Below, piece by piece: positions 2,136-23,977 of a DNA stretch of 37,677 bases (position 1 is the first letter of the stretch; the number at the start of each line of letters is the position of its first letter). This stretch comes from Deltaproteobacteria bacterium. Lineage in GTDB: Bacteria; Desulfobacterota; Syntrophia; Syntrophales; Smithellaceae. The stretch is from NCBI GenBank assembly GCA_025355175.1, contig JANYAF010000051.1, positions 1-37,677 on the forward strand, written 5' to 3'. Below the pieces are notes generated by a model, which saw nothing but the letters and a program-made list of their open reading frames with translations, was not told where the DNA came from and did no database searches. The position numbers and the translations under genes were made by a program.

Positions 2136-2156
2136 CAGTCTTCAGTCTTCAGTCTA
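2136..2156. repeat. Tandem heptamer CAGTCTT x3
   Basis: Three consecutive copies of a 7-base unit (CAGTCTT, CAGTCTT, CAGTCTA; on the minus strand TGAAGAC phase). The last unit contains the stop codon of the gcdA-like gene. The same kind of unit recurs at 18079-18099, and a relative (GTGAAGC) recurs at 13631-13658. Confidence 0.7.
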
Positions 2157-3917: not shown

Positions 3918-3931
3918 GCTTTGCTCCCTCT

Positions 3932-3998
3932 AGAACAGGGTCTTGCTGCCCTTCAGTGGTGGTTGCCACCCTTCGGTGGTGGCAAGACCCCTTGTTCT
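3932..3998. repeat. Nested hairpin in the gap between acyl-CoA dehydrogenase and gcdA
   Basis: Outer arms AGAACA (3932-3937) with TGTTCT (3993-3998) and GGGTCTTGC (3938-3946) with GCAAGACCC (3982-3990) enclose a small CCACC/GGTGG hairpin (3966-3979). The word GGTGGCAAGACC is shared with intergenic elements near 20485 and 27364. Lying inside an operon, it could stabilise or attenuate the message (inference). Confidence 0.7.
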
Positions 3999-4019
3999 GA
4001 CTGTGCCTGGATAGTTCAG

Positions 4020-5177
4020 TTATGCCCGGTTCGGGGCAAATCCCATCGCCGCGTTGGCGACGATCATCGTGTGCATATTGGAGGTGCCTTCCAGCGTTTC
4101 GAATTGCTTAGAGTCGCGCAGGAAGCGGCCGCAGGGATATTCATCGGAATAGCCGAAGGAGCCGTAAAGCTTCATGCATTCATTGGCGTCATGCACAACG
4201 ACTTTCGCGCCGTAGAGTTTGGACATCGATGTTTCCATGACATTGGGCAGGCCCTTGTCTTTGAGCCAAGCCGCCTTATAAACCAGCGCCGCCAGCGTCT
4301 CGTGCCCGCACTTCATGTCTGCGACCTGCTGCTGGATGAGCTGATATTTGCCGATTTGCTTTCCAAACTGACAGCGTTCCGTCGCGTATTTTGCCGAAGC
4401 ATCCAGGATTGCGCTGGAAAGACCCAGGGCGCCGGCGGAACAGCCCAGGCGCGTGGAGTTGAGTTGCGTCATGCACATCTGGAATCCTTTGTTGAGTTTC
4501 CCCAGTAAGAGGCTCTTGGGCACTTTCACGTCTTCAAACGTCAGCTCCGCGGTATCGGATGCCCACAGGCCGACTTTCTCGTTAATTTTTTTACGGGCGA
4601 TACCGGGAAGGCTATAGTCCATGATAAAACAACTCACACCGTTGGCCCCCGCATCTTTATCGGTCTTCACATACAGCAGACCGTGATTACAGACGGTACC
4701 GTTGGTGATCCACATTTTATTGCCGTTGATCAGATAGTGGTCGCCCTTGTCGTCGGCGCGGCATTTCATCGAGGCGACGTCCGAGCCGATGTCCGTCTCA
4801 GTCATGGCGAAGCTGCCGATATATTCACCACTGACAAACTTGGGAATGTAGTGTTGCTTTTGCTCTTCCGTGCCGAATTTCTGAATGGTGAGCGCGGGTC
4901 CCCAGCATTGCATGTTGAAGGCCATGCGCCAGGATGTGTGCACCTTAGCAATCTGTTCGATGGCCAAAGCGCCTTCCAGAAATCCCATGCCGTTTCCGCC
5001 GTATTTTTCATCGATGGAAAAGCCAAAAAATCCAAGGTCGGCCATCTTCTGAAAAATTTCCTTGCGCCAAAAATGATTTTTTTCGTCTTCCTCGACGTGC
5101 GGCGCAATTTCTTTTTCGGCAAAACTTCTTGCCGTATCCTGTATCATTGTTTGTTCTTCTGTTAATGCAAAATCCAT
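4020..5177 (-). CDS. Acyl-CoA dehydrogenase, glutaryl-CoA dehydrogenase-like
   Basis: 385 residues, a full-length FAD acyl-CoA dehydrogenase: FAMTETDIGSD and MWITNGTV in the middle domain, TERCQFGK..G.YQLIQ and the C-terminal LEGTSNMH, where Glu363 is in the position of the catalytic base. Arg84 (TSWRMAF) aligns, by my recollection, with human glutaryl-CoA dehydrogenase Arg94, which binds the distal carboxylate. The residue before the catalytic Glu is Leu362, whereas decarboxylating glutaryl-CoA dehydrogenases have Tyr and the non-decarboxylating Desulfococcus enzyme has Val. A non-decarboxylating glutaryl-CoA to glutaconyl-CoA step is the best fit, especially beside the gcdA-type gene. A related dicarboxyl or alicyclic acyl-CoA cannot be excluded. 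A GGAGG ribosome site precedes the start. Confidence 0.85.
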   Translation of the reverse strand: MDFALTEEQTMIQDTARSFAEKEIAPHVEEDEKNHFWRKEIFQKMADLGFFGFSIDEKYGGNGMGFLEGALAIEQIAKVHTSWRMAFNMQCWGPALTIQKFGTEEQKQHYIPKFVSGEYIGSFAMTETDIGSDVASMKCRADDKGDHYLINGNKMWITNGTVCNHGLLYVKTDKDAGANGVSCFIMDYSLPGIARKKINEKVGLWASDTAELTFEDVKVPKSLLLGKLNKGFQMCMTQLNSTRLGCSAGALGLSSAILDASAKYATERCQFGKQIGKYQLIQQQVADMKCGHETLAALVYKAAWLKDKGLPNVMETSMSKLYGAKVVVHDANECMKLYGSFGYSDEYPCGRFLRDSKQFETLEGTSNMHTMIVANAAMGFAPNRA

Positions 5178-5290
5178 AATTCTTTATCCTCCAAGGTCTT
5201 TGATTAATTTTTATACTTTATAGCATGTTGCCTTCACAGGGTAACGCGACGACGCAGCCAACAAAGTTAGCCGAAGAATGCAGCTTGCTG

Positions 5291-6556
5291 TTATTTTCTT
5301 TCAATAACCATACATATCCCCTGGCCGCCACCGCCGCAGATCGTCTCCAGGCCGAAACGCTTGTCGGACCGCACCATTTCGTTAATCAGTGTGGTGAGCC
5401 GCATCGCACCGGTTGCGCCGATGGGATGCCCGAGCGAAATACCCGAACCGTTCACATTAACTTTCGCGTCCATCTGCTCGTCGGAAAGGCCGGAAAGTCG
5501 AGAGTCCGCCAGACACTGGACGGCAAATGCCTCCTGTACTTCGATCAGATCGATCTGATCAATTGTCGCGTTAATCTTTTTCAGTGCTTTTTCCACCGAT
5601 GCCGGAACTGCGGGGTAGGTGAGCGTCGGGTCGGTAGCCGCCACCGCGCAGGAGCGGAAATAGGCCAGCGGCTTGACGCCCAGCTCCCTGGCTTTCTTTT
5701 CAGACGCCATCACCACCACCGCCGCGCCGTCATTTTCCGACGACGAATTGCCCGCCGTACAGACGCCGTTTTTATAAACAGCTTTAAGCTTGGCCAGGCG
5801 TTCCAACGTGGTTTCGCGGCGCGGTCCTTCATCGGTTTTCAAATAAACGGTTTCACCGTTCTTATCTTTGCCGGTCGCAATCGGGACAATTTCATCGACA
5901 AACTTGCCCGCGTCCTGCGCCGCAATCGCCCGCTGATGAGAGCGCAGGGCCCAGCGGTCGGCTTCTTCCCGGGTGATTTTCTCTTTTTGGGCGGCGGTTT
6001 CCGCCCAGGTCATCATCGAACTTAGCTCGCCGTATCGCGCAATGGGCTGAGACATGACTCGTCCGCGTTGAAGTCTGTCATAAAAAGGAATTCCCCACAT
6101 GGCCAGCGCGCCGTGTCCGCGGGGCATGAAGCCGTATTTTTCATGGCTTTTCCCGCCCAGTCCCCACTTGATGTCGCCGGGGATATAAAGTTCGCCCTGG
6201 CTCATCGATTCCATACCGCCTGCGATGATCAGGTCGGCGTTGCCGGTTTGGATTTTCATGGCTCCGTAAAAGATGGTATCCAGCCCCGAACAGCAGCGTC
6301 GATCCAACATGATTCCTGGAACAGTATCCGGCCACCCTGCGTCGAGCACAGCCATGCGTGCGCCGTTGGCGCACTCGCCGTTCTGGTAGGCTGATCCCAT
6401 GACGACATCATCAATCATCGCGGGATCAATTTTGGCCTTTTTGGCCACTTCCTGCAAGACCAGACTAGCCAGGCGGTAAACCGGAACATCTCTGAGCGCT
6501 CCTCCGTAAGCGCCGATCGGCGTTCTCGCACAACTGATAAAAACGACATTTTCCAT
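5291..6556 (-). CDS. Acetyl-CoA acetyltransferase (thiolase)
   Basis: 421 residues. The thiolase active sites are visible: nucleophile Cys88 (DRRCCSGLD), His377 (SLGHPIGATGA) and Cys407 (CGGGGQG). The usual NEAFA motif reads QEAFA (Gln341). The reaction would be thiolytic cleavage of acetoacetyl-CoA, or a longer 3-ketoacyl-CoA, to acetyl-CoA, the last step after crotonyl-CoA beta-oxidation. The gene lies 13 bases downstream of the malic enzyme gene, so the two are almost certainly co-transcribed. AGAGGTG acts as the ribosome site. No hydratase or 3-hydroxyacyl-CoA dehydrogenase accompanies it here. Confidence 0.92.
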   Translation of the reverse strand: MENVVFISCARTPIGAYGGALRDVPVYRLASLVLQEVAKKAKIDPAMIDDVVMGSAYQNGECANGARMAVLDAGWPDTVPGIMLDRRCCSGLDTIFYGAMKIQTGNADLIIAGGMESMSQGELYIPGDIKWGLGGKSHEKYGFMPRGHGALAMWGIPFYDRLQRGRVMSQPIARYGELSSMMTWAETAAQKEKITREEADRWALRSHQRAIAAQDAGKFVDEIVPIATGKDKNGETVYLKTDEGPRRETTLERLAKLKAVYKNGVCTAGNSSSENDGAAVVVMASEKKARELGVKPLAYFRSCAVAATDPTLTYPAVPASVEKALKKINATIDQIDLIEVQEAFAVQCLADSRLSGLSDEQMDAKVNVNGSGISLGHPIGATGAMRLTTLINEMVRSDKRFGLETICGGGGQGICMVIERK

Positions 6557-6569
6557 AAAGCAGCACCTC

Positions 6570-8231
6570 TTATGAATTATTTGTTAAACCATTATACAGC
6601 TGATAGACCGGGTCGTACATCTTCGACTTGATGTAACCGGGTAAATTGGCTGGTTCCCTCATTGTGGTAAGTTTTCTGGCGAATACAACTTTTGCAACGG
6701 TCAGTGCGATATTGGCCGAAACATCGCGGATGCGCGTCAGTGAAGGAAAAATCCGCCCCTTTTCAAAATCCTCTCTCGAGACCTGTTCATCCAGACATTT
6801 GGCTGCCGCGGAGAACATCTCATCCGTCACGCGGGTTGCTTCCGAGGCCATCACGCCCAACCCGACGCCGGGGAAGATGTAAACATTGTTGGCCTGCCCC
6901 GGTATAAAGGTTTGCCCATCCATCTCCACCTTGGGAAACGGACTGCCGCTGGCGAAGACGGCGCGCCCTTTTGTGTGGCGATAAGCGTCTTCAGCCGTGC
7001 ATTCCGCCTGGGAGGTCGGATTGGAAAGCGCAAAAATAATCGGACGCTCGTTTAGACGTGCCATTGCCGTTAAAATTTCCGGCGTAAAGGTTGCGGGTTG
7101 TCCCGACGCTCCGATGATGGCTGTAGGTCGGATGGCTTCAACCACCTCCGGAAGATTCCGATGGAAGGGAAAATCATGGGCAAAGTGCTGTTTGTGTTGG
7201 GCCAGGTCCGTTCGGCTCTCCACGACAAGGCCTTTGGAATCGACAAACCAGCAGCGGCCTATGGCCTCTTCTTCAGGAAGGCCCTGCTGGACCATCGCGG
7301 AGGCCACCAGGTTCCCGATACCAAGAGCTGCCTCGCCTGCGCCTAAAAACACCAGCCGCTGTTCGGTTATTTTGCCTTTGATCATGCGCAGGGCGGAATA
7401 CAGTCCGGCCAGCGCGACACTGGCGGTGCCCTGAATGTCGTCGTCGAACATACAGTATTGATCGCGATACCTGGCGAGCAGGCGGAAGGCATTCTTATTT
7501 CCGAAGTCTTCCAGTTGAATCATGACGTTGGGGAATATCTCGCTTGCCGCCGCCATAAACTCATCAATAAGCGAGTCATAGTCTTCACCTTCCAGGCGCG
7601 GTTCCGGCAAACCGATGTATTGCGGATCACTCCACAGCTCGTTATTGTTTGTTCCGACATCGATCATAATCGGCAGGCATGCCGCAGGGTCAATGCCCGC
7701 GCAGGCGGTATAAAGCGACAATTTCCCGACAGGGATTCCCATGCCGTTGGAGCCGAGATCGCCCAGGCCCAGGATGCGCTCGCCATCCGTTACCACGATC
7801 ACCCGGACATCCTTGGCAGGCCAGTTTTGCAAAACCTCTTTAATGCGGCCGCGATCATACCGGGTAATGGACAACCCGCGGGGACGGCGATAAACATGGC
7901 TGTATTCCTGGCACGCCAGGCCAACGGTCGGCGTGTAAACGATGGGACTGAGTTCCTCCAGGTGGTCAGTGAGCACTTTATAAAACAGCCGCTCATTGCG
8001 GTCCTGCAAACCGATCAGATAAAGGTATCTTTCCAGGTTGTTGGGCTTGCGGCGAATGTTATTGATGACGTGTTGAACCTGTTGTTGCTGAGTCGAGATA
8101 CGCGGCGGAAGCAGCCCGTGCAGGCCCAACGCTTCGCGCTCAGCCGCCGTAAAGGCCGTTCCCTTATTCAGACTCGGATCGTGCAGCAACTCAACACCAC
8201 TCGGAAATTTTCCAGTACAGCCATTATTCAT
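6570..8231 (-). CDS. NAD-type malic enzyme (oxaloacetate-decarboxylating)
   Basis: 553 residues, matching the long malic enzyme class (MaeA/SfcA-like). Motifs seen are YTPTVGLACQEYS, VTDGERILGLGDLG, FEDFGNKNAFRLL-like residues (LEDFGNKNAFRLL), FDDDIQGTASV with metal-binding acidic residues, the nucleotide-binding FLGAGEAALGIGN and ALSNPTSQAECT. It interconverts malate with pyruvate plus CO2, with NAD(P)H. It lies between the 5S-type carboxyltransferase gene (126 bases upstream) and the thiolase gene (13 bases downstream), so it probably supplies or removes pyruvate for the neighbouring carboxyltransferase (inference). AAGGAG stands about 12 bases before the ATG. Confidence 0.93.
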   Translation of the reverse strand: MNNGCTGKFPSGVELLHDPSLNKGTAFTAAEREALGLHGLLPPRISTQQQQVQHVINNIRRKPNNLERYLYLIGLQDRNERLFYKVLTDHLEELSPIVYTPTVGLACQEYSHVYRRPRGLSITRYDRGRIKEVLQNWPAKDVRVIVVTDGERILGLGDLGSNGMGIPVGKLSLYTACAGIDPAACLPIMIDVGTNNNELWSDPQYIGLPEPRLEGEDYDSLIDEFMAAASEIFPNVMIQLEDFGNKNAFRLLARYRDQYCMFDDDIQGTASVALAGLYSALRMIKGKITEQRLVFLGAGEAALGIGNLVASAMVQQGLPEEEAIGRCWFVDSKGLVVESRTDLAQHKQHFAHDFPFHRNLPEVVEAIRPTAIIGASGQPATFTPEILTAMARLNERPIIFALSNPTSQAECTAEDAYRHTKGRAVFASGSPFPKVEMDGQTFIPGQANNVYIFPGVGLGVMASEATRVTDEMFSAAAKCLDEQVSREDFEKGRIFPSLTRIRDVSANIALTVAKVVFARKLTTMREPANLPGYIKSKMYDPVYQLYNGLTNNS

Positions 8232-8251
8232 TAGCGCGTAATCTCCTTTAA

Positions 8252-8338
8252 TCCCGCTGTTGCGGGACGAGCGTCAATTCTCCGCGAGCTTGCTCGCGAT
8301 ATAATGACGTTCATTTCATCCCTCGACAGCGAGCTCGC
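8252..8338. repeat. Three palindromes between carboxyltransferase and malic enzyme genes
   Basis: TCCCGC-TGTT-GCGGGA at 8252-8267, CGCGAGC-TT-GCTCGCG at 8283-8298 and the perfect palindrome GCGAGCTCGC at 8329-8338 fill the 126-base gap. No U-tract follows on the minus strand, so this is more like a REP-type element or mRNA-stability structure than a terminator. Confidence 0.6.
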
Positions 8339-8357
8339 GAGGTGGTTGATTCTTTCA

Positions 8358-9779
8358 TCATTCCTTTGCCGACGCGCTGGGCGGCACATCGTTTCCATAT
8401 TTTGTCTGCAGATACTTTTCCATGGTCTGAGGGAATAAAATCCAACCCAACAGGTCTTCGTCCGTTCGTGCCAGATGGCCGATCGTTTTTTTCGCTTCCT
8501 CGATTTCCGGTGGCAGCTCATCGGCCGGTCGGCCGGTGATCGGCGTCTGTCCGCGTTTATAATTTTTGAGTATTTTTGCGGTCAGATCCTTATCAATCGG
8601 TGCGGGGGTTTTACCATACAACCCCAAAACGAGGTCCTTAAGCTGATTGGATATTCTGGCATATCGTCCGAAAAGTACATTCAACACGGCCTGCGATCCG
8701 ATGATTTGAGAGGCCGGTGTCACCAGAGGCGGATAGCCCATGTCTTTTCGCGTCTGAACGACTTCCGTGTAAATCTCGCTTAATCTATCCAACGCTTTCA
8801 TTTCTTTGAGTTGGCTGGTTAAATTGGAGATCATCCCGCCCGGAATTTGATGCGCAAGAACGCCGGTGTCAATGATGGAAAGCCTGTGATCCGCTAAAAG
8901 GTGTTTATACTTGGGGGCGATGTTTTCCAGGTGTTCACTCAGTTCCAGAAGCTTGTACAAATTAATGCCTGAATCCTTGGGGGTTCCCTGAAGAGCTGCA
9001 ACGATGGGTTCGCAGGCGGGCATCGATGTTCTCAGCGCAAAGGGCGCAAGGCAGGTATCGATAATATCCACGCCGGCCTCTATGGCTTTTAAGTAGGACA
9101 TGCTGCCCATGCCGCTGGTATAGTGAGTGTGCAAATGCAACGGTACTTTTACGGCCTTTTTTAATGCGGTGAAAAGATCAAATGCGTCATAAGGAGAAAG
9201 CAATCCGGCCATGTCTTTGATACAAATGGTATCCGCGCCCATTTTTTCCAGTTCTTTGGCTTTGGCCACGTAAAAATCGAGGGTATATATTTCGCCGCCC
9301 AGCCGGCTTTCCGTCAGCGAATAACAAACCGTTCCTTCCAAGTGTTTGCCGTTGGCTTTAATTCTTTCCACGCAGGTTTCGATGTTACGGAAGTCATTGA
9401 GCGCATCAAAACAGCGGAAAATGTCAATTCCGATTTCACAAGATTTGTCGACGAAAGCGCGGACGACGTCGTCCGCGTAATGACGGTAACCGACCAGATT
9501 TTGTCCGCGCAAGAGCATGCTGAATGGTGTTTTCTTGGCATATTTTTTTAGAATCTTGGGCCGCATCCATGGATCTTCGTCAAGAAAGCGATGCATCGTA
9601 TCAAACGTCGCTCCCCCCCATACCTCCATAGCCCAGAAACCGCAGTTATCCATTTCCTCGGCAATGGGGATCATGTCCTCCGTTTTCATTCTGGTTGCAT
9701 AAATGGACTGATGACCGTCACGGAACGTATTATCCTGAATTTTGATGGGTTGGGGCGAACTTTCTTTTCTGTCTTTCAT
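8358..9779 (-). CDS. Carboxyltransferase 5S-type subunit (pyruvate/oxaloacetate), no biotin domain
   Basis: 473 residues. It can be followed against the 5S subunit of propionibacterial transcarboxylase and the pyruvate carboxylase B / oxaloacetate decarboxylase alpha family: DNTFRDGHQS (metal ligand Asp21), WGGATFD, MLLRGQNLVGYRHY, CIKDMAG (Lys188, the carboxylated lysine position), LHTHYTSG (His217 and His219, metal ligands), PGGMISNL and PLVTP.SQI.G.QAV. It stops about where the biotin-carrier domain would begin in OadA/PycB fusions, so a separate biotinyl protein is needed. The reaction is carboxyl transfer between biotin and pyruvate/oxaloacetate. It is the first gene of the minus-strand operon. 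AAGGAG precedes the ATG, and sigma-54-like promoters lie upstream. Confidence 0.9.
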   Translation of the reverse strand: MKDRKESSPQPIKIQDNTFRDGHQSIYATRMKTEDMIPIAEEMDNCGFWAMEVWGGATFDTMHRFLDEDPWMRPKILKKYAKKTPFSMLLRGQNLVGYRHYADDVVRAFVDKSCEIGIDIFRCFDALNDFRNIETCVERIKANGKHLEGTVCYSLTESRLGGEIYTLDFYVAKAKELEKMGADTICIKDMAGLLSPYDAFDLFTALKKAVKVPLHLHTHYTSGMGSMSYLKAIEAGVDIIDTCLAPFALRTSMPACEPIVAALQGTPKDSGINLYKLLELSEHLENIAPKYKHLLADHRLSIIDTGVLAHQIPGGMISNLTSQLKEMKALDRLSEIYTEVVQTRKDMGYPPLVTPASQIIGSQAVLNVLFGRYARISNQLKDLVLGLYGKTPAPIDKDLTAKILKNYKRGQTPITGRPADELPPEIEEAKKTIGHLARTDEDLLGWILFPQTMEKYLQTKYGNDVPPSASAKE

Positions 9780-16743: not shown

Positions 16744-18069
16744 TTACGTGCACAGGGTTCGTATAATATCTTTCGTCATCTTGATTCCCAAAAGCAGATT
16801 ATCCATGGAAATCCGCTCGTCGATGCCATGGACGCGGCCGAGATCCATGCGTTCCAAAATCATTGGCGTAAAGCCGTAAGCCGGATAGCCGCTCTCGCGC
16901 CAGTAACGGCCGTCAGTCGCCCCGGCCATTAAAAGAGGAAATACACCGGCGCCGGGAGAATGCTTTTTGACAGTCTCAGTGACAGTCTGAAAAAAGAGAT
17001 TGTCTGTCGGTGCGATTCCCGAAGGAGGCGACGTCTGGATCATCTCAATCTGAATGCGTTCGTCGGCGATTTGTCCGAGAAGCCATCGGTGAAATTCTTT
17101 CGCATCCGTTTCTGGAAGCAGACGGCAATCCAACTGAGCTTCGGCACGCTCTGGAATAACATTGATCTGATAGCCGGCCTCGATGATATTGACGCTGATG
17201 GTGTCGCGAAGCACGGCGTTGGTAAATTTTTCGGCAGCGAGTTTTTCCCCCGCCAGTTTCAACACCAGAGGGTTGGCGAGATGTTGCAGCATGAATGAAG
17301 CGGGGAATTTTTGCGTGGAAGCCAGGCCTGTAAACATGGCAGCCGCGGCTGGTCCAACTTTCAGGGGCCGGGGTTTGTCAATGATTCTTTGCAGAGCGGC
17401 AATAAGCAATGTGTTGGCGCTCCCGGGGTGCGGCATGGAACCGTGTCCCGGTTCGCCTTTCGCGATGAGTTTGAACCGGTAAATTTGCTTTTCGGCAACG
17501 GCGACGGCAAACATTGTTCCTTTTCCGAAAACATCTTTCAGCCCGCCGCTGCCTTCATCCCACACCCATTCGGGATCAATATCTTTTTCGTGATTTTTCA
17601 GAAGCCAGCGCATGCCGTTGTCGCCGCCCGGTTCTTCATCGGGCACGGCCGTAAAGACAATGGGACGGCGGAATTTCACGCCTTCCGCAAGCAGCGATTC
17701 CAGCGCCAGCATAAACATGATGCCCAGGCCCTTGGTGTCGAGCGTGCCGCGTCCCCAGACAAAGCCGTCGGCCACCGCGCCGCTGAAAGGTGGATGGCGC
17801 CATTGGGAAGAATTGGCGGCGACCACATCGATGTGGTGATTGATCATCAGCGGCTTTAGCCGTTCTGTTCCGGCAATGCGCGCGACAACGAGGCCGCGCC
17901 CGAGAATGGGTTCATGGATTTTGATATCGGAGGTAATGTTGCGGCTGACCAGCTGATCGCGAAGCCACAGCGCCGCCGGCATTTCATTGCCCGGCGGATT
18001 GGTCGTGTCGAACTGTACATAACGACTCATCGTCGCCACCGCATCTTCCATTATTTTTGTGTCATCCAT
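16744..18069 (-). CDS. M20-family metallopeptidase / amidohydrolase
   Basis: 441 residues. The zinc-site pattern is intact: His79-x-Asp81 (NHHIDVV), Asp111 (RGTLDTKG), Glu145-Glu146 (DEEPGG), and the dimerisation-domain GEPGHGSMP. It resembles the M20A group (carboxypeptidase S / PM20D1 / succinyl-diaminopimelate desuccinylase-like), enzymes that hydrolyse peptide or N-acyl-amino-acid bonds. No signal peptide is seen. It lies downstream of the frameshifted MFS transporter gene and may have handled the imported compound. The exact substrate cannot be read from the sequence. Confidence 0.88.
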   Translation of the reverse strand: MDDTKIMEDAVATMSRYVQFDTTNPPGNEMPAALWLRDQLVSRNITSDIKIHEPILGRGLVVARIAGTERLKPLMINHHIDVVAANSSQWRHPPFSGAVADGFVWGRGTLDTKGLGIMFMLALESLLAEGVKFRRPIVFTAVPDEEPGGDNGMRWLLKNHEKDIDPEWVWDEGSGGLKDVFGKGTMFAVAVAEKQIYRFKLIAKGEPGHGSMPHPGSANTLLIAALQRIIDKPRPLKVGPAAAAMFTGLASTQKFPASFMLQHLANPLVLKLAGEKLAAEKFTNAVLRDTISVNIIEAGYQINVIPERAEAQLDCRLLPETDAKEFHRWLLGQIADERIQIEMIQTSPPSGIAPTDNLFFQTVTETVKKHSPGAGVFPLLMAGATDGRYWRESGYPAYGFTPMILERMDLGRVHGIDERISMDNLLLGIKMTKDIIRTLCT

Positions 18070-18113: not shown

Positions 18114-19407
18114 TCATTCCGCCAGAATCGCCTCATCTTTCACTTTCTGCAAGTCTTCGGGATACGTGCGTGATGCGACAAAAAAGAGGACACCCGCCAT
18201 AATACCAAAGAGTCCGCAGAACATAACCGCCATACTCAAACCGTCGGCGCCTCCGCCCAGCCAGTCCGAAACCGCGCCGACGATATAAGGCCCCCATGCG
18301 CCGCCCAGCATATACTGCGCAAAAATCGCCAGCCCCATGGAAAGCCCTTTATGCGCCACTGGCACAACATCCTGCGAGATGGCGGCTTATCGCCGGCATC
18401 GCCATGGCCGCGCAGATACCGTATACACAGGCCAGCGCGATCCCCAGATAACTGAATCCTGTCAGCACAACCACAATCAAAAGCGAGCCGCCGATGATAT
18501 AAGCCACAACCGGAATATACATCCGTCCCCGGGGATTTTTCTTTTGCCAGAAATCCGCTAGAAATCCGCCCAGTGGCGCGCCAAGAATCGCCATCAGGCC
18601 GATGCCGCCGGTGATGATTCCCGCCTTGGCTTCGGAAATATTTAAAACGCGCATCATCAAACTGGGCAGCCAGACTAAAACTGATGAGGTCATGAAAACC
18701 GCAATGCCCAGCCCCAGGTAATACCAGCGCATCGTGGGCAGCTTCAAAACATCAATCAGTGCGGTAAAAAAGCCCTTGATGCCACCCGCGGTATCCGGCT
18801 GTTCAGCGGTTTTATAATCCTTCATGAAGAAAGCCAGGATGCCCAGGATGACGCCGGGTATCGCAAAAAACAGAAACGGTGCCCGCCAGCCGTATTTTAC
18901 AGAAATGATACCGCCTAGAATGACGCCCGCCGCCGCGCCCAGCGGTATCGCAATATGAAAAATGCCCATGGCCCAGCCACGCTTTTCTTTGGGATAGGAA
19001 GCGCTGATCATAGCGGTGCCGCCCGGGACAAAGCCCGCCTCCCCCAGGCCGACAAAGAAGCGGGGAATCAAAACCCCAGTAAAATTCTTAGCCAGTCCCG
19101 TGGTGAACGTCGCAATACTCCAGAGAATGGCCATTAGACCGATCGCCTTCCGCCGGCTCCAGCGGTCAATCAGGTAGGCGATGGGAAAGGAAAAAAATGC
19201 CATGCCGAAGATCAATATGGTTGAGGCCAGACCGCACTGCGCGTCCGTCAATCCCAGATCAATCTTCATCGGTTGAAGAATAACTGAAAAAACCTGCCGG
19301 TCCATGTAATTGATGACGTACAAAAGCGTGCAGACAATCAGGACAAAGTGTGCCCGCCCGCCGCCTGTCTTGTATTGCCCGCTCTGGCCCGACGATACAT
19401 GCTTCAT
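18114..19407 (-). pseudogene. MFS transporter, interrupted by a +1 frameshift
   Basis: Two adjacent frames together make one 12-segment major-facilitator protein of about 430 residues. The first frame (19407 down to 18349) gives about ten membrane segments: NYMDRQVFSVILQPM, the loop-2/3 motif DRWSRRKAIG, and a C-terminal half ending at AMAMPAI. The second frame continues as AAISQDVVPVAHKGLSMG through the last two segments to the stop at 18114. One extra base in the TTAT at 18387-18390 (minus strand GCGATAAGCC) would explain the break; dropping one A restores a single frame. It is either a recent pseudogene or a sequencing error. The N-terminus resembles organic or aromatic acid permeases of the ACS group. 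A GGGGGAT ribosome site precedes the ATG. Confidence 0.85.
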
Positions 19408-19425: not shown

Positions 19426-20214
19426 TTATGCCTTTGTTCCTTCCGCGAGGCACGCTGCGCCGTAAGCCGCGGAAAGTCTCGGTTTTTCCGGAACCAGAAT
19501 TTTTACTTTCAGCGCGCAGCCTATGGCCTGCACCAGTCCTGCGTCCTCGCCACCACCGCCGGTAAGCACGACGTCCGGCTCCAGTTTCAGTCTTTTAACC
19601 AGCATGCTCACTTTGGCGGCCATCGCCCGGTGGACGCCTGCCAGAATATCTTCTGCTTTTGCGCCTTCGGCAATCCGGGAAATGGTTTCCGATTCGGCAA
19701 AGACGGCGCAGTTGGTTGAAAACTCGACGGGCTTTTGCGACTGCAGAGAAAGAGGCCCGATGTCATCCAGACTGACATGCAGAATCCGCGCAATCACCTG
19801 TAGAAATCTGCCGGAGCCGGTAGCGCATTTTTCACTCATGAGAAAGTCGGCGATCCTTCCCTCCGGCGTAATTTTTGCAGCTTTTGTAAATTGCCCGCCG
19901 ATATCAATAATCATTCGCGCCGAGGGGAAAAGACAGTGGCATCCTTTTGCCTGGCAGGAAATGTCGGAAATTTGCCGTGCTGTAAAAGGCGTACTTTCCG
20001 CGCCAAGTCCCGTGACCACCAGGCCGGAGAGTTGCTCCATGGGGATACCGGCTTGGGATAAAACGTCATCCATTACCTTTCTCGCGCCATCTTTATAATT
20101 GCCGCCGGAAGCGATAAGACTCGAAGCGATCAGCCGCTTTTCGCTCGTCAAAGCGGCTTTGATAGAGACGGAACCGATATCGAGGCCGGCGTAGTATTTT
20201 TTTGTGTCGTTCAT
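19426..20214 (-). CDS. BadF/BcrA-type activase, atypical (QFTK variant)
   Basis: 262 residues of the ASKHA ATPase family that activates 2-hydroxyacyl-CoA dehydratases and forms the AD module of ATP-dependent benzoyl-CoA reductases. Seen are the phosphate-1 loop GLDIGSVSIKA, DIGGQ, the two [4Fe-4S]-cluster cysteines Cys130 (SEKCATGSGRF) and Cys169 (STNCAVFAESE), and the adenosine loop LTGGGGEDAG. Standard members read DIGGQDTK or DIGGQDSK; here Phe109 replaces the Asp. It is the second activase of the cluster and is shorter than the first. Two unlike activases fit a heterodimeric BcrA/BcrD (BzdP/BzdQ) arrangement. Confidence 0.85.
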   Translation of the reverse strand: MNDTKKYYAGLDIGSVSIKAALTSEKRLIASSLIASGGNYKDGARKVMDDVLSQAGIPMEQLSGLVVTGLGAESTPFTARQISDISCQAKGCHCLFPSARMIIDIGGQFTKAAKITPEGRIADFLMSEKCATGSGRFLQVIARILHVSLDDIGPLSLQSQKPVEFSTNCAVFAESETISRIAEGAKAEDILAGVHRAMAAKVSMLVKRLKLEPDVVLTGGGGEDAGLVQAIGCALKVKILVPEKPRLSAAYGAACLAEGTKA

Positions 20215-20279
20215 AAAACCTCAACTTTGTCCCCCGCTGGCGCGTCAGTCCGGCGCATGCTGGAGGGGTGCAAGGGGTG

Positions 20280-20495
20280 GTGTTTTTTTAATGCAGTGTA
20301 GGGCGCGTCGTGTGACCGCGAGCCACCTCGGGGCACCTTTAGGTGGTTAGATTATTTCCAAACGCGCCGTGTTTCGGACTGCTCGGGGATAACCTAATGA
20401 CCTAAAGGTCACACGAGGTCACGCGTCAGTTCCTACCACATCCACCTTCGTCGGCGGAGGATACAGGTCGCGACCACCCTGCGGGTGGCAAGACC
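20280..20495. repeat. Composite intergenic palindrome element between the two activases
   Basis: The 286-base gap holds several hairpins: CACCT-TT-AGGTG (20334-20345), TGACCT-AA-AGGTCA (20398-20411) and CCACCC/GGGTGG (20474-20488). It shares ACCTAAAGGTCACACG and, inverted, TCCCCGAGCAGTCCG with the element near 2000. It shares GCGGGTGGCAAGACC and GTCGCGACCACCC, both inverted, with the element at 27364-27429. No coding sequence is seen in it. Confidence 0.7.
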
Positions 20496-20500
20496 ATTCT

Positions 20501-21331
20501 CTACGAGAAGAATTTGACTCCTTCCCGCTTTCGTTCATGTGCCGGTCTCACGCCGCGGTCATAAAAATCTTTTCCAACGAGTGCCGCACCCAGCGCCCCG
20601 GTGATAAAAGGCTCGGGCGGTGTCAGTACGGGGAAGCCGACCTTGCCGGCGATGGCTTTGATGAGCCCGACATTTTTCGCGCCGCCTCCGGTGACAACCA
20701 CATCCTTTTCAATGCCCAGATGGCGCGTCATGTTGACGACGCGACCCGCGATAGCTTCGTGCAGACCGGCGACAATTTCGGCTACACCCGCGCCTTCGGA
20801 CAGGCGCGAGGTCACTTCATGCTCGGCAAAGACCGTGCACATATTGGAAATCTGGACAAAGCCGTTGGCCTTGAGAGCGATCTTGCCCATATCCACCAGA
20901 TTGATGCCCAGTGTTTCGGCGATCACTTCCAGAAAACGGCCGGTTCCGGCGGCGCATTTGTCATTCATGACAAAGTTGGCTACCTTGCCTTCGGCATCGA
21001 GTTTGATGCCTTTGGAGTCCTGACCGCCGATATCGATGATGATGCGCACGGAGGGAAACAGAGAACGGATGCCGCGTGCGTGACAGGTAATTTCCGTGAT
21101 TTGCTTGTCGGCAAACGGAACATTAATGCGGCCATAACCGGTGGCGACGATAAAATCGAGATTCTCGAATTGGAGCCCCGCCTTTTGGATGGTATCTTCC
21201 ATGACTTTGAGCGCCAGATGGCGATGTTCCACACCTGTTGGTCCGATATGCGAGGCAAGCATTTTTTCTTTGTCATCCACAACCACCACCTTCGTCATTG
21301 TGGACCCAATATCAATCCCGGCAAACAGCAT
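20501..21331 (-). CDS. Acyl-CoA reductase/dehydratase activase (BcrD/BzdQ/HgdC-type)
   Basis: 276 residues. Canonical activase features are all present: AGIDIGSTMTKVV, IDIGGQDSKGIK (Asp105 present), the cluster cysteines Cys126 (NDKCAAGTGRF) and Cys165 (SNMCTVFAEHEV), and VTGGGAKNVG. The homodimer or heterodimer couples ATP hydrolysis to injection of a low-potential electron into the catalytic component encoded upstream. It lies between the catalytic subunit gene (186-base gap) and the second activase gene (286-base gap). Confidence 0.9.
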   Translation of the reverse strand: MLFAGIDIGSTMTKVVVVDDKEKMLASHIGPTGVEHRHLALKVMEDTIQKAGLQFENLDFIVATGYGRINVPFADKQITEITCHARGIRSLFPSVRIIIDIGGQDSKGIKLDAEGKVANFVMNDKCAAGTGRFLEVIAETLGINLVDMGKIALKANGFVQISNMCTVFAEHEVTSRLSEGAGVAEIVAGLHEAIAGRVVNMTRHLGIEKDVVVTGGGAKNVGLIKAIAGKVGFPVLTPPEPFITGALGAALVGKDFYDRGVRPAHERKREGVKFFS

Positions 21332-21370
21332 AAAATGACTTCCTTATTATTGTTCTCCACTGGCGGAGGT

Positions 21371-21383
21371 GTCACGAAGTGAC
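21371..21383. repeat. Small hairpin GTCAC-GAA-GTGAC
   Basis: A 5-base-pair hairpin flanked by near-repeats (GGCGGAGGTG, ACGGAGGTGG) in the 186-base gap between activase and catalytic subunit genes. The rest of the gap holds C-rich/G-rich pairs (CTCCCCCT, AGAGGGGG) and no gene. Confidence 0.4.
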
Positions 21384-21517
21384 GGAGGTGGTGATCATGC
21401 TGCAACTGATCAATGTTGACGCTGCATCACGAAACCTCCCCCTACCCCCTCCAGAGGGGGACAACTCCACCTGCACCCTTCTGCGGGGGTCAGATCTTTA
21501 GTCTAGTGGCCTAAAGC

Positions 21518-22822
21518 CTATTTCCCTCTCCCCTCCAGTGCTTCAATAAACGCGCTGATCTGTGCCTTCCACTGCGCTTCCGAGTAATCCCGCAAATCCA
21601 CCATGTCGGAAACCAGCTGCATCATGGGGATGCTGGTGTATTTTCCCAGTTCACTTTTGATATGTGTCTGGCCGATGGTGGTCGCGCGGCAGGAGCGGCA
21701 GGCATGGAAGACAACGCCGTCGATTTTGTAATCGTCAATCAGCCCCAGCAATTTTTCTACAAGGGGGTTGCCGCTATGAGCACGCGCTTTTTCATGATAG
21801 CGCGTGAAGCGCAAAAACGCCCGCCAGGCCAGGTAATCAACCGGGTCTTTCACGTGCGACGGCACTTCCACCGGATCAAAACCGCGATAGACGTTTTCAA
21901 TAACAAACACCGCGCCAAAACTTTCAAAGTAGTTGAATATCCAGAGCGTATGCCAGGGCGGCAGGCCTCCGCCGTAGAGTATCCGGTATTTTTCATCAGG
22001 GATGACACCGATTTTATTGTCTACCTTGTATTTCACTTCGTCGTAGAGCTTCTGGTAAAAATCAATGGCGACCTGCGTGCCCGAGTAGTAATGGCCGGCT
22101 ACCATGATACTGAAATGATCCTGCGACGGCATCGGGCAGGGAACGGCCACACGCAGACGGTCGATGTCATACCAAATTTGCCAGGCCTTGTCGCCCAGAC
22201 GAATAGCTTCCCATAGGCGTTCCTTATCCATTTTCTTTCCGGTCTGTTTTTCCAAAAATTCGATCAAGCCCAGCAGCTGATCGCGCTGGTATTTAATATA
22301 ATAATCGCGCACTTCGTTTAAATCCGCCTGCGGAGGCGGCGCGACAACATCCATGCCAAAGGTGGGCGCCTCCAGATAGCGGCTGGTCGCCTGAAACCAT
22401 TTAAACCGGGGGTCGCACACGGCGGAACTCCCCAGCATCATGTCGGGAACGGGCATGCCGCCATCGGGGCTTCCCTCCGGGATATGCCCCATTTCCTTGC
22501 GCAGAGAGTCAAAGCCCAGACCGATGCGCGCGTAGCTGCACAAGACCTGAGAATATCCGTCCGCTTCCGCCTTCAAAAGAAAGCGGTCCATGTCGCGTTT
22601 GGCGGCGCAAAGGCCGGCGTAATTTTCCGTGGGCAGCGGCACAATATCCATCGCGCGCAGGATTTCGTCATACTGGGACGCGACCATCATGTAGGCCACT
22701 TTTTGCCCTTTGGCCTTGGCTTCGTGCGCGCTCTGATAAATGTTCTTGACCATCGCCCGCACCAGGCGAGCCGTGTCCGTGCCTTTGACGGCTGTCGTTT
22801 TGATCTGCTGATTCGCTTCCAT
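21518..22822 (-). CDS. Benzoyl-CoA reductase / 2-hydroxyacyl-CoA dehydratase subunit, BcrB/BzdO-like
   Basis: 434 residues of the HgdB/BcrB family. Recognisable segments are PLPTENYAGLCAAKRD (Cys72), VLCSYARIGLGF (Cys95), GSSAVCDPR (Cys136), PCPMPSQDHF, and HACRSCRATTIGQTH (Cys375, Cys378) near the C-terminus; some of these cysteines should ligate a [4Fe-4S] cluster. The length is close to BcrB and BzdO. It would form the substrate-reducing BC module with the 379-residue protein encoded 15 bases upstream. Benzoyl-CoA or an analogue is the likely substrate because two activases accompany it, but a 2-hydroxyacyl-CoA dehydratase is the main alternative. Confidence 0.85.
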   Translation of the reverse strand: MEANQQIKTTAVKGTDTARLVRAMVKNIYQSAHEAKAKGQKVAYMMVASQYDEILRAMDIVPLPTENYAGLCAAKRDMDRFLLKAEADGYSQVLCSYARIGLGFDSLRKEMGHIPEGSPDGGMPVPDMMLGSSAVCDPRFKWFQATSRYLEAPTFGMDVVAPPPQADLNEVRDYYIKYQRDQLLGLIEFLEKQTGKKMDKERLWEAIRLGDKAWQIWYDIDRLRVAVPCPMPSQDHFSIMVAGHYYSGTQVAIDFYQKLYDEVKYKVDNKIGVIPDEKYRILYGGGLPPWHTLWIFNYFESFGAVFVIENVYRGFDPVEVPSHVKDPVDYLAWRAFLRFTRYHEKARAHSGNPLVEKLLGLIDDYKIDGVVFHACRSCRATTIGQTHIKSELGKYTSIPMMQLVSDMVDLRDYSEAQWKAQISAFIEALEGRGK

Positions 22823-22837
22823 AATTATCCTCTTTCC

Positions 22838-23977
22838 CTACGAAATCATTTCTAAGAACGCTTGTATGCGTGTTCGCAACTGCCCGATTGTCGATGTTGA
22901 ATAATCGTCCTCGATCATCAGCACGGGCAGCTTCAGGCTGTTTAAATATTCCCGTAGATCCGGGCCTTCCAGTTCGCACGTGTCGCAGTAGCGGACGATA
23001 TAAAAGATCACGCCGTTTGCCTGCCACTGACTGATAAATTCTTTCATGTAACCGAAACGGTTTTCCAGATCCTCTTGGCGATTGCCGATCTGCGGTTTGA
23101 GGCTGCGCGGACAGTGCGTGCAGATATAACGTTTAGCGATGCCGTCGAGTGGATCATTTGTCTCTGAAGCATCCTCCCAGAAAAAGCGCGTTCCCGTACA
23201 CAGGTCATCCATCACAACATGCGCGCCGCATTCCTCCACTAATCGGATAAACGCGACATCGTCAATTTCGTTGCCCCAAAGGAAAATACGGGGCAGGCCG
23301 TCCGCTTTCGGAGCGGGACGGCCTTTGATTTCATCGATATAGTCTTGCAGCAGTTCAATGTGTTCCAAGGCGGGGATGCCCATACCCGCCACCAGCACTT
23401 TGGTGATTTCCGTTCCTGATACGCGCGGCGGATTTTCCTTTCGCAGATCATAGAGTTCGCGAAGCAGGGCGCGTCGCCGGTTGTAAAGTTTCACGGCGTC
23501 CCGAAGTTTGTTTTGATCCAGTTTTGTGCCGGAAAATTCTTCCAGACGTTTGATAAAATAATCCAGCTCCTTGCGGTAGAAGACATCGGAAGACGGTCCC
23601 ATCATATGCGGAACATTGATCATGTGATTGAAGGGAGACGGTTTGTTGCTGCGCCAGATATGATACATCCGTTCGATGGTGTCGCAACTATGTGGCGCGA
23701 CAAACCCGTCGAGAAAATCGTATTCGCCCTTGAGCGCCATGTTAAAACAACTGCGGGCGAAAGGGCAAGCCATCGGTTCCAGCAGAGCGTCCGCTTCGTC
23801 GATGGGATCGTTCTGACTGCCCTGAATGCGGTAGGGCACCATATCAAAGGCGGTGATAATTTCGTCCGGAACAAAACAGCAAAAATAACCGATAATCTTT
23901 TTACCCGCATCATGCAATTCTTTCGCACGTTTGCCTCTCTCATTATATAGGTTTTCAATTTTTTGCAGAGCGCTCAT
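22838..23977 (-). CDS. Benzoyl-CoA reductase / 2-hydroxyacyl-CoA dehydratase subunit, BcrC/BzdN-like
   Basis: 379 residues. Family features are GYFCCFVPDEIITAFDMVPYR, MACPFARSCFN (Cys71, Cys77), VAPHSCDTIERMYHIW (Cys98), a central LWGNEIDDVAF, a late Cys pair YCDTCELEGPD (Cys331, Cys334) and the C-terminal EDDYSTSTIGQLRTRIQAFLE typical of the family. The length and gene order (C, B, then two activases) parallel bcrCBAD and bzdNOPQ. It heads the minus-strand cluster and starts in a 132-base divergent region facing the TrpF-like gene. No good promoter was identified for it. Confidence 0.85.
   Translation of the reverse strand: MSALQKIENLYNERGKRAKELHDAGKKIIGYFCCFVPDEIITAFDMVPYRIQGSQNDPIDEADALLEPMACPFARSCFNMALKGEYDFLDGFVAPHSCDTIERMYHIWRSNKPSPFNHMINVPHMMGPSSDVFYRKELDYFIKRLEEFSGTKLDQNKLRDAVKLYNRRRALLRELYDLRKENPPRVSGTEITKVLVAGMGIPALEHIELLQDYIDEIKGRPAPKADGLPRIFLWGNEIDDVAFIRLVEECGAHVVMDDLCTGTRFFWEDASETNDPLDGIAKRYICTHCPRSLKPQIGNRQEDLENRFGYMKEFISQWQANGVIFYIVRYCDTCELEGPDLREYLNSLKLPVLMIEDDYSTSTIGQLRTRIQAFLEMIS

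Follow-up and report, generated by a model that had tools for sequence, protein, structure and literature searches.

A four-gene cluster with the layout of bzdNOPQ in a Smithellaceae-type genome represents a separate BCR/HAD-family clade that may act on 2-hydroxyacyl-CoA

Does a cluster laid out exactly like bzdNOPQ encode a class I benzoyl-CoA reductase (BCR)? The locus that raises this question lies at positions 19426 to 23977 (minus strand) of the window, the whole 37,677-nucleotide stretch of DNA analyzed here, which comes from a Syntrophales metagenome-assembled genome (MAG) of the Smithellaceae type, a bacterium of the methane food chain. With such a layout, its clade can be annotated as class I BCR; it would be a misannotation to label the product an enzyme that breaks the benzene ring. 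One Syntrophaceae bin in which two bcr hits from Prokka, unaccompanied by the rest of the pathway, were read as possible aromatic degradation (PMC10936416) is only a candidate for membership in the clade described below.

Layout and integrity of the cluster

The cluster comprises four intact open reading frames (ORFs), all on the minus strand: subN (22838 to 23977; 379 amino acids [aa]), encoding a BzdN/HadC-like subunit; subO (21518 to 22822; 434 aa), encoding a catalytic-type subunit; actA (20501 to 21331; 276 aa), encoding an ATP-dependent activase; and actD (19426 to 20214; 262 aa), encoding a second, divergent activase. SubN and SubO match HGD-D (PF06050; 321 and 199.6 bits), and ActA and ActD match BcrAD_BadFG (PF01869; 201 and 170 bits), with all four scores well in excess of the cut-offs; the activases also match TIGR00241 (262 and 212 bits). 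In size and order, SubN-SubO-ActA-ActD equal bzdN-O-P-Q. The nearest named loci are in Smithellaceae, Syntrophaceae, and Smithella MAGs, with SubO identity of up to 97 to 98%. The initial annotation, which described two catalytic-type subunits followed by two unlike activases, similar in size and order to bzdNOPQ, in a syntrophic deltaproteobacterium, was correct on these points.

The cluster is under purifying selection and is not a chance arrangement, because dN/dS relative to three congeners is 0.04 to 0.14 for each of the four genes and because it is syntenic in many genomes; in Syntrophales, it is kept as a unit. A 286-bp insertion between the activase genes (20215 to 20500, no strand) is absent from the nearest relatives; it carries a 34-bp dispersed repeat with a palindrome, GGTCGCGACC, at the repeat's end. 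Downstream of the cluster lie genes for an MFS transporter of the galactonate/aromatic acid symporter type (18349 to 19407, minus strand) and, beyond it, an M20-family deacylase/peptidase (16744 to 18069, minus strand), both of which are kept with the cluster across the genus. The MFS gene is frameshifted in the window by a one-base insertion relative to two relatives with an intact 430-aa gene, and its C-terminal part lies in another frame (18114 to 18365).

The initial annotation also considered a glutaryl-CoA operon about 10 kb away to be suggestive. The genes are there (2154 to 9779), ending ∼9.6 kb from the cluster start at 19426: the best match of one ORF (4020 to 5177) is glutaryl-CoA dehydrogenase (381 bits versus a cut-off of 470), and another (2154 to 3917) is 58% identical to a 584-aa protein adjoining HgdCAB-like genes in Fusobacterium, a putative GcdA. 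They and the cluster are separate transcription units, and we dropped a functional link between them.

Family models, trees, and predicted folds

All four proteins miss the Bzd and Bcr cut-offs by about half or more. Against the Bzd equivalogs (TIGR03190/03191/03192), SubN scored 183 of the 454 bits needed, SubO 157 of 449, and the activases 188 and 139 of 380; against the bcr/mbr equivalogs (TIGR02259/02260/02261/02263), scores were 169 of 578, 102 of 487 (SubO, bcrB), 135 of 313, and 165 of 421 bits (SubN, bcrC). Scores against the NCBIfam HadB and HadC equivalogs, which are narrow single-substrate models, were 154 of 750 (SubO) and 169 of 700 bits (SubN). The top NCBIfam match of SubN is double_cubane, the DCCP model (NF040772), though below cut-off (241 of 350 bits); SubO reaches only 86 of 350. 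Among proteins of solved structure, the best relatives are BzdN for SubN (179.7 bits) and BzdO for SubO, while ActA matches HadI (240.8 bits), MbdQ (224.9 bits), and HgdC (204 bits).

In trees from which FldBC sequences were left out, the SubN and SubO families each form their own clade (both 100/99), distinct from Bzd, Bcr/Mbd, HAD (2-hydroxyacyl-CoA dehydratase), and DCCP; on these sequences, the SubN and SubO branch appears to be a separate, undescribed clade. SubO stands apart from the Bzd clade (100/100), including true BzdO of the same phylum, and neither subunit falls inside Bzd. Nor do the proteins show the clear clustering with 2-hydroxyacyl-CoA dehydratases that, according to the initial annotation, would have refuted it. 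In unrooted trees, both SubN (99/97) and SubO (100/98) fall on the Bzd side; in the N tree, MbdN/BcrC group with HAD, not with the SubN family. The best trees show a separate clade, but a topology that unites SubO with HAD withstands the AU test (P = 0.10). ActD forms its own clade; ActA is nearest to it in a larger activase tree (95/92), which suggests that the activase pair may have been duplicated within the family, but a second tree did not confirm this pairing. AU P values for joining ActA or ActD with either Bzd activase were 0.025 to 0.078.

The fold search was not decisive between Bzd and Had. The closest solved fold to the SubN model (pLDDT 88.7) is BzdN (Z = 46.7, root mean square deviation [RMSD] 1.9, 368 residues aligned), with HadC at Z = 43.8, whereas the closest folds to the SubO model (pLDDT 82.4) lie within 2 Z units of each other: HadB (Z = 38.2, RMSD 2.6, 391 aligned), MbdO (36.7), and BzdO (36.2).

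Cluster ligands and active-site residues

SubN has all six cysteines of the [8Fe-9S] double cubane (C33, C71, C98, C260, C289, and C331), corresponding to BzdN C36, C73, C100, C263, C293, and C327, the ligands taken from PMC11971306; 30 of 31 SubN sequences have them. We rejected this set as a mark of ring reductases because Mbd/Bcr N-type subunits lack three of the six, and an HAD-side paralogue in the same genome has them all. The residue set of BzdO (three Cys, Glu65, His131, and Trp46 of the pocket for the aromatic ring) is only partly present in SubO: the three cluster cysteines (C95, C136, and C378) and the glutamate (Glu66) are kept, but the family motif C-D-P-R puts Arg139 where BzdO has His131, and by alignment Ala48 or Ser49 takes the position of Trp46. 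Both activases keep the bridging-cluster cysteines (ActA C126 and C165; ActD C130 and C169). With two HGD-D subunits, BcrAD_BadFG activases, cluster cysteines, and matching folds, the predicted enzyme belongs in the BCR/HAD radical enzyme superfamily.

Genome and operon context of relatives

The family ranges over Syntrophales, Desulfobacterales, Dehalococcoidia and other Chloroflexota, Nitrospinota, and Myxococcota. Operons of its farther members (45 to 62% identity) carry a CaiB-type CoA-transferase, D-2-hydroxyacid dehydrogenase, and 2-oxoacid:ferredoxin oxidoreductases; such operons occur in Chloroflexota, Nitrospinota, and Desulfobacterota, including the Syntrophaceae loci L113 and L145. 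Outside the window's own subclade (SubO identity of ≥63%), family operons contain an alpha subunit of the VorB type (434 bits against a cut-off of 399), an indolepyruvate oxidoreductase (IOR) alpha subunit (788 bits against 650.9), and GlcD accompanied by a GlcF/LdhH-like Fe-S protein. In the O tree, L103 and L105 are among the closest sisters of the subclade (98/90); their operons have the full 2-hydroxyacid set, but SubO occurs there without SubN or activases. Within the subclade, none of ∼25 loci has CaiB, D-2-hydroxyacid dehydrogenase, GlcD, VOR, or IOR within 10 kb; the neighbors are ligases and transporters, and near-clade operons likewise carry acyl-CoA ligase and transport genes. Outside the subclade, family operons hold a type III CoA-transferase, which lies within two genes at 23 of 80 loci (shuffled mean, 14.9; none of 2,000 shuffles as high). 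CaiB adjacency alone beats shuffling; the tests for GlcD, D-2-hydroxyacid dehydrogenase, VOR, IOR, and ligase neighbors were not significant.

True class I BCRs occur in the host's phylum: in L190, a Bzd operon, genes for ring hydrolase and dienoyl-CoA hydratase lie next door, and a Bcr operon (L193) has ring hydrolase. A genome search for these two enzymes and bamBC had been proposed in the initial annotation. Neither ring hydrolase (TIGR03200) nor dienoyl-CoA hydratase (TIGR03189) was found in this genome, its 19 congeners, or other sampled members of the family. None of the 20 genomes with the window's subclade has ring hydrolase; of three AFOR_C proteins in this genome, the two that were scanned match no BamB model. 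The ring hydrolase argument rests on absence, not on correlation, as exclusion from cluster-bearing genomes gave a Fisher P value of 0.11.

Proposed reaction and alternatives

We propose that the cluster represents a new clade of the BCR/HAD family whose ATP-activated enzyme may well be a 2-hydroxyacyl-CoA (de)hydratase, a reading to which we give about even chances. By analogy with homologues, ActA and ActD would form a heterodimer bridged by a [4Fe-4S] cluster, to which ferredoxin would donate an electron; with ATP hydrolysis, the enzyme would drive the electron to the double-cubane cluster of SubN and from there to the three-Cys [4Fe-4S] cluster of SubO, where the CoA-thioester substrate would become a ketyl-type radical. 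The net reaction would most likely be a reversible dehydration or hydration at C2 of a 2-hydroxyacyl-CoA, not aromatic ring reduction; we infer this from the operon partners of farther relatives only, whose CoA-transferase, D-2-hydroxyacid dehydrogenase, and oxidoreductases point to 2-hydroxyacyl-CoA chemistry. The conserved cluster ligands and acid residue, the separate clades, the 2-hydroxyacid operons of farther relatives and of the sisters L103 and L105, the absence of ring hydrolase and dienoyl-CoA hydratase, and HadB as the top fold for SubO speak for this reading. Against it stand the two activases (well-known HADs have one), the full set of six SubN cysteines where a reduced set would be expected of a HAD, the Bzd-side trees, and the lack of CoA-transferase and D-2-hydroxyacid dehydrogenase genes beside the cluster and in its subclade, and the dehydratase identity is not proven by these sequence comparisons.

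A possible but less probable alternative is an ATP-dependent two-electron reductase of a non-benzoyl acyl-CoA (aryl-, cyclic, or enoyl-CoA), in which the double cubane would store two electrons, as proposed for BzdN, supplied by the two unlike activases. All known class I BCRs have two activases; the BzdN/DCCP-like cysteines, the position of the family on the Bzd/DCCP side of the trees, and the SubN fold fit as well, and the near-clade ligase and transport genes would suit an acid that is taken up from outside and then activated. The absence of the six cysteines from Bcr/Mbd and their presence in the HAD-side paralogue weaken this argument, as do the replaced histidine and tryptophan, the 2-hydroxyacid operons of farther relatives, and an ATP cost that a syntroph could hardly pay. 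More specifically, and more doubtfully, syntrophs might have a new ATP-dependent double-cubane acyl-CoA reductase with Asp and Arg, paired at the active-site cluster, in place of the Bzd histidine; if so, it would be used by anaerobes for which ATP-driven low-potential reductions were thought to be unaffordable. Quite unlikely is a two-subunit DCCP relative that would act as a reductase of small molecules, not of acyl-CoA: the double_cubane score and SubN cysteines are consistent with it, but the subunits are unlike, SubO has the three-Cys cluster and Glu of acyl-CoA enzymes, and CoA ligases, CoA-transferases, and acyl-CoA enzymes are neighbors.

A genuine bzd-type BCR in a strict anaerobe, the primary proposal of the initial annotation, is strongly disfavored, and we consider it very improbable. 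Gene order, the best solved relatives, and the true class I BCRs of the phylum would suit it; the missed cut-offs, a clade apart from the phylum's true BzdO proteins, the His131-to-Arg change, and the absence of downstream enzymes that accompany L190 and, for the hydrolase, L193 do not. The alternative offered in the same annotation, a new ATP-dependent reductase or dehydratase that acts on a different acyl-CoA, is supported, as is its assignment to the BCR/HAD family.

Comparison with known systems

DCCP (PDB 6ENO and 7YYL) shares the six cysteines with SubN but is homodimeric with one activase, and SubN scores below its cut-off. The Bcr/Mbd class I enzymes (MbdONPQ; PDB 9G87 and 9GAI) are alike in fold and four-gene composition, and MbdO and SubO share an SCR-type third cysteine motif and the lack of His131; the cluster falls below the Bcr cut-offs, and MbdN/BcrC differ in their cysteines and HAD-side grouping. 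HadBC/HadI and HgdAB/HgdC (PDB 3O3M, 4EHT, and 1HUX) share the fold, with HadB on top for SubO, and the Glu-Asn motif (TEN/PEN) and three-Cys cluster of the alpha subunit, and the farther relatives adjoin CoA-transferase and dehydrogenase genes as in hadA/ldhA operons. In contrast to these enzymes, the window cluster has two activases, a separate clade, no such partners alongside, and, in SubN, all six double-cubane cysteines, some of which are missing from HadC and from the HgdB-like protein of Fusobacterium.

BzdNOPQ (Aromatoleum; PDB 8S02) resembles the cluster in gene order, sizes, fold, two activases, [8Fe-9S] cysteines, the three-Cys cluster and acidic Glu of the O subunit, and its side of the deepest supported split; it differs in identity (∼25 to 29%), clade, the His131 and Trp46 positions, and the ring hydrolase and dienoyl hydratase that this genome lacks. 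Sequence marks that can separate the two are C-D-P-R versus C-C/D-S-H and the presence of ring hydrolase. In this clade, a double-cubane subunit like BzdN is paired with a catalytic subunit like HadB, a combination that would test what separates reductase from dehydratase in the BCR/HAD family.

The four-gene cluster

The initial annotation described two catalytic-type subunits and two activases, and this arrangement holds: SubN (22838-23977; 379 aa), SubO (21518-22822; 434 aa), ActA (20501-21331; 276 aa), and ActD (19426-20214; 262 aa) are intact, consecutive, and all on the minus strand. SubN and SubO match Pfam HGD-D and the activases match BcrAD_BadFG, all far above cut-off. Each gene shows a dN/dS of 0.04 to 0.14 against three congeners, and the closest named loci come from Smithellaceae, Syntrophaceae, and Smithella MAGs. 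An MFS-transporter gene and an M20-hydrolase gene lie downstream on the same strand and are kept with the cluster across the genus.

The window's MFS gene (18114-19407) is disrupted by a one-base insertion, either a lesion or an assembly error; it is intact in two close relatives (430 aa). An intergenic insertion within the operon (20215-20500) carries a 34-bp repeat with terminal GGTCGCGACC, further copies of which occur in the window's genome and between the operon genes of relatives (L071:15579-15613). At another locus, L050, the SubN-SubO gap is ∼0.6 kb longer. Positions 52-1905 encode a butyryl-CoA:acetate-type CoA-transferase whose C-terminal part matches a Pat-like acetyltransferase.

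Relationship to known families

The cluster belongs to the benzoyl-CoA reductase (BCR)/2-hydroxyacyl-CoA dehydratase (HAD) superfamily but, by the tests run, is not a Bzd, Bcr, or double-cubane cluster protein (DCCP) equivalog. The following NCBIfam scores (bits/cut-off) all fell short: those for SubN (bzdN, 183/454; double_cubane, 241/350; HadC, 169/700; bcrC, 165/421), SubO (bzdO, 157/449; HadB, 154/750; bcrB, 102/487), and the activases against bzdQ (ActA, 188/380; ActD, 139/380). Among solved structures, the top sequence matches were BzdN for SubN (180 bits), BzdO for SubO (130 bits), and HadI for ActA (241 bits).

Our trees used references from the PDB (BzdNO, MbdON, HadBC, and DCCP, taken from alignments, with BzdO lacking residues 295-354), from the same phylum (true BzdO above the curated cut-off, L167 to L169, and true BcrB, L178), and from loci that we read as HgdCAB in Fusobacterium (GcdA-like and other neighbors) and hadAIBC in Proteus. 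Rather than falling within the Bzd or Bcr clades, SubN relatives formed a single clade (100/99), as did SubO relatives (87/82 with all rows; 100/99 with three long branches taken out). The SubN family grouped with Bzd and DCCP (99/97), and the SubO family, in an unrooted tree, with Bzd (100/98), both apart from HAD and Bcr/Mbd. Clear clustering with 2-hydroxyacyl-CoA dehydratases, the outcome that the initial annotation had set against its own proposal, was not seen, and a constraint joining SubO to HAD was not rejected (AU p 0.10). ActA and ActD each formed one clade and the two were sisters (95/92), which suggests that the two-activase layout may have arisen independently of BzdPQ. In AU tests, p for pairing either activase with either Bzd activase ranged from 0.025 to 0.078, and a second tree did not confirm the ActA-ActD grouping. 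Two plasmid loci gave long branches: L165 (Rhizobium leguminosarum; N-O subunits plus two activases) and L163 (Azoarcus sp. KH32C; N-O-activase-CaiB-acyl-CoA dehydrogenase).

Active-site residues and models

We took the six [8Fe-9S] ligands of BzdN, like the active-site residues, from the BzdNO structure paper (PMC11971306). SubN retains all six, as do 30 of 31 family members, whereas at least two are missing from HadC and from the N-subunits of Hgd, Bcr, and Mbd. We ruled out these cysteines as a mark of ring reductases, because a HAD-side paralogue on contig C57 of the window's genome also retains all six. SubO keeps C95/C136/C378 and Glu66. From its second cluster cysteine it reads C-D-P-R, with R in all aligned SubO sequences; the corresponding Bzd motif is C-C/D-S-H and includes the catalytic His131. 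Trp46, the ring-stacking residue of Bzd, is replaced by either Ala or Ser according to the alignment used. The SubN model (pLDDT 89) is nearest to BzdN (Z 46.7) and HadC (43.8), and the SubO model (pLDDT 82) to HadB (38.2), MbdO (36.7), and BzdO (36.2).

Benzoyl-CoA degradation genes

Among 99 Syntrophales genomes, including the window's own, 20 carry the window's SubO subclade (≥62% identity or near-identical fragments). The initial annotation had named ring hydrolase and dienoyl-CoA hydratase as genes to look for; neither was found in cluster-bearing genomes. Ring hydrolase (Oah; TIGR03200) was detected in 0 of these 20 and 0 of 51 same-family genomes, and dienoyl-CoA hydratase (Dch; TIGR03189) had no match at E 1e-40 in the same sets, several members of which are 99 to 100% complete; as a control, ring hydrolase was detected in 11 other genomes. 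Across 106 scanned loci, Oah adjoined only two true class I clusters, L190 (Oah, Dch, BzdN, BzdO, and two activases) and L193 (Oah beside Bcr), apart from a weak local match at L107 (28%, 173 residues). With equivalog cut-offs missed, separate clades, and no ring hydrolase, the proposed benzoyl-CoA reductase identity was not borne out, and we consider net reduction of benzoyl-CoA very improbable. L190 (G155; bzd-type) and L193 (G195; bcr-type) are themselves genuine class I BCRs in a mostly strictly anaerobic phylum.

Gene neighborhoods and probable reaction

In the window's subclade (∼25 loci), ligase and transport neighbors suggest a substrate that is probably imported as an acid and converted to its CoA ester: L097 and L098 have an AMP-forming ligase upstream and, downstream, either a TRAP-type protein (assigned by the size and order of the genes) or a periplasmic binding protein, and the window's genus has MFS and M20. 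Beside the cluster are also CoA-transferase and β-oxidation genes (L100) and an enoyl-CoA hydratase (L089).

Wider-family context came from 80 named loci. Members at 45 to 62% identity adjoin a type III CoA-transferase, within two genes at 23 of 80 loci (shuffled mean, 14.9; 23 reached in 0 of 2,000 shuffles). Other neighbors, whose adjacency was no better than shuffling, were D-2-hydroxyacid dehydrogenase, VOR-like oxidoreductase, GlcD with a GlcF/LdhH-like protein, and indolepyruvate oxidoreductase (IOR) alpha. Such a set of CoA-transferase, D-2-hydroxyacid dehydrogenase, and oxidoreductase typifies 2-hydroxyacyl-CoA dehydratase pathways (hadA-I-BC, ldhA, and fldA-I-BC). Two Syntrophaceae operons exhibit this context, combining D-2-hydroxyacid dehydrogenase, SubN, SubO, and ligase with TRAP-type genes (L113) or with IOR and acyl-CoA dehydrogenase (L145); none of the type III CoA-transferase/D-2-hydroxyacid dehydrogenase/VOR/GlcD/IOR set lies near the cluster in the window's subclade.

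By analogy, the enzyme very likely follows the mechanism of its family: ferredoxin would pass an electron to the activase, ATP would drive it to the SubN cluster, and from there it would move on to the [4Fe-4S] cluster of SubO and the thioester. For the net reaction we favor water elimination or addition over reduction, giving it about an even chance; the wider family's neighbors and the HadB-like fold of SubO are consistent with it. Reduction of a non-benzoyl acyl-CoA, with which the grouping with Bzd in both trees is compatible, is possible and distinctly less probable.

Seven loci (L103, L105, L106, L107, L126, L137, and L139) have a SubO-family gene without adjoining SubN or activase; at several of them, CoA-transferase, D-2-hydroxyacid dehydrogenase, and 2-oxoacid oxidoreductase genes share its operon, and the genomes of L103, L105, L107, and L126 carry other HGD-D and activase genes elsewhere. 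L103 and L105 come from Chloroflexota MAGs (G338 and G339; 3.3 and 1.8 Mb) with 67 and 54 HGD-D matches and only 9 and 7 activase matches, a large lineage-specific expansion; sampled loci there (L203 to L210) hold N-O(-O) sets in tandem, most of them Bzd-like and bearing the C-D-S-H motif.

We found no description of the SubN/SubO clade in the literature searched. Class I BCRs with a full pathway are reported in Chloroflexota (PMC5736913); a Syntrophaceae coal-seam bin had two Prokka bcr hits, none with BlastKOALA, and no other pathway genes, and was cautiously reported (PMC10936416). In sulfate reducers, ketones induce two BCR/HGD subunits (PMC7888143, PMC8084838). Three distant members (L078, L079, and L081; 32 to 35% identity), ordered SubO, SubN, and two activases with 391-aa and 138- to 147-aa protein families upstream of SubO, appear to resemble these ketone-induced clusters.
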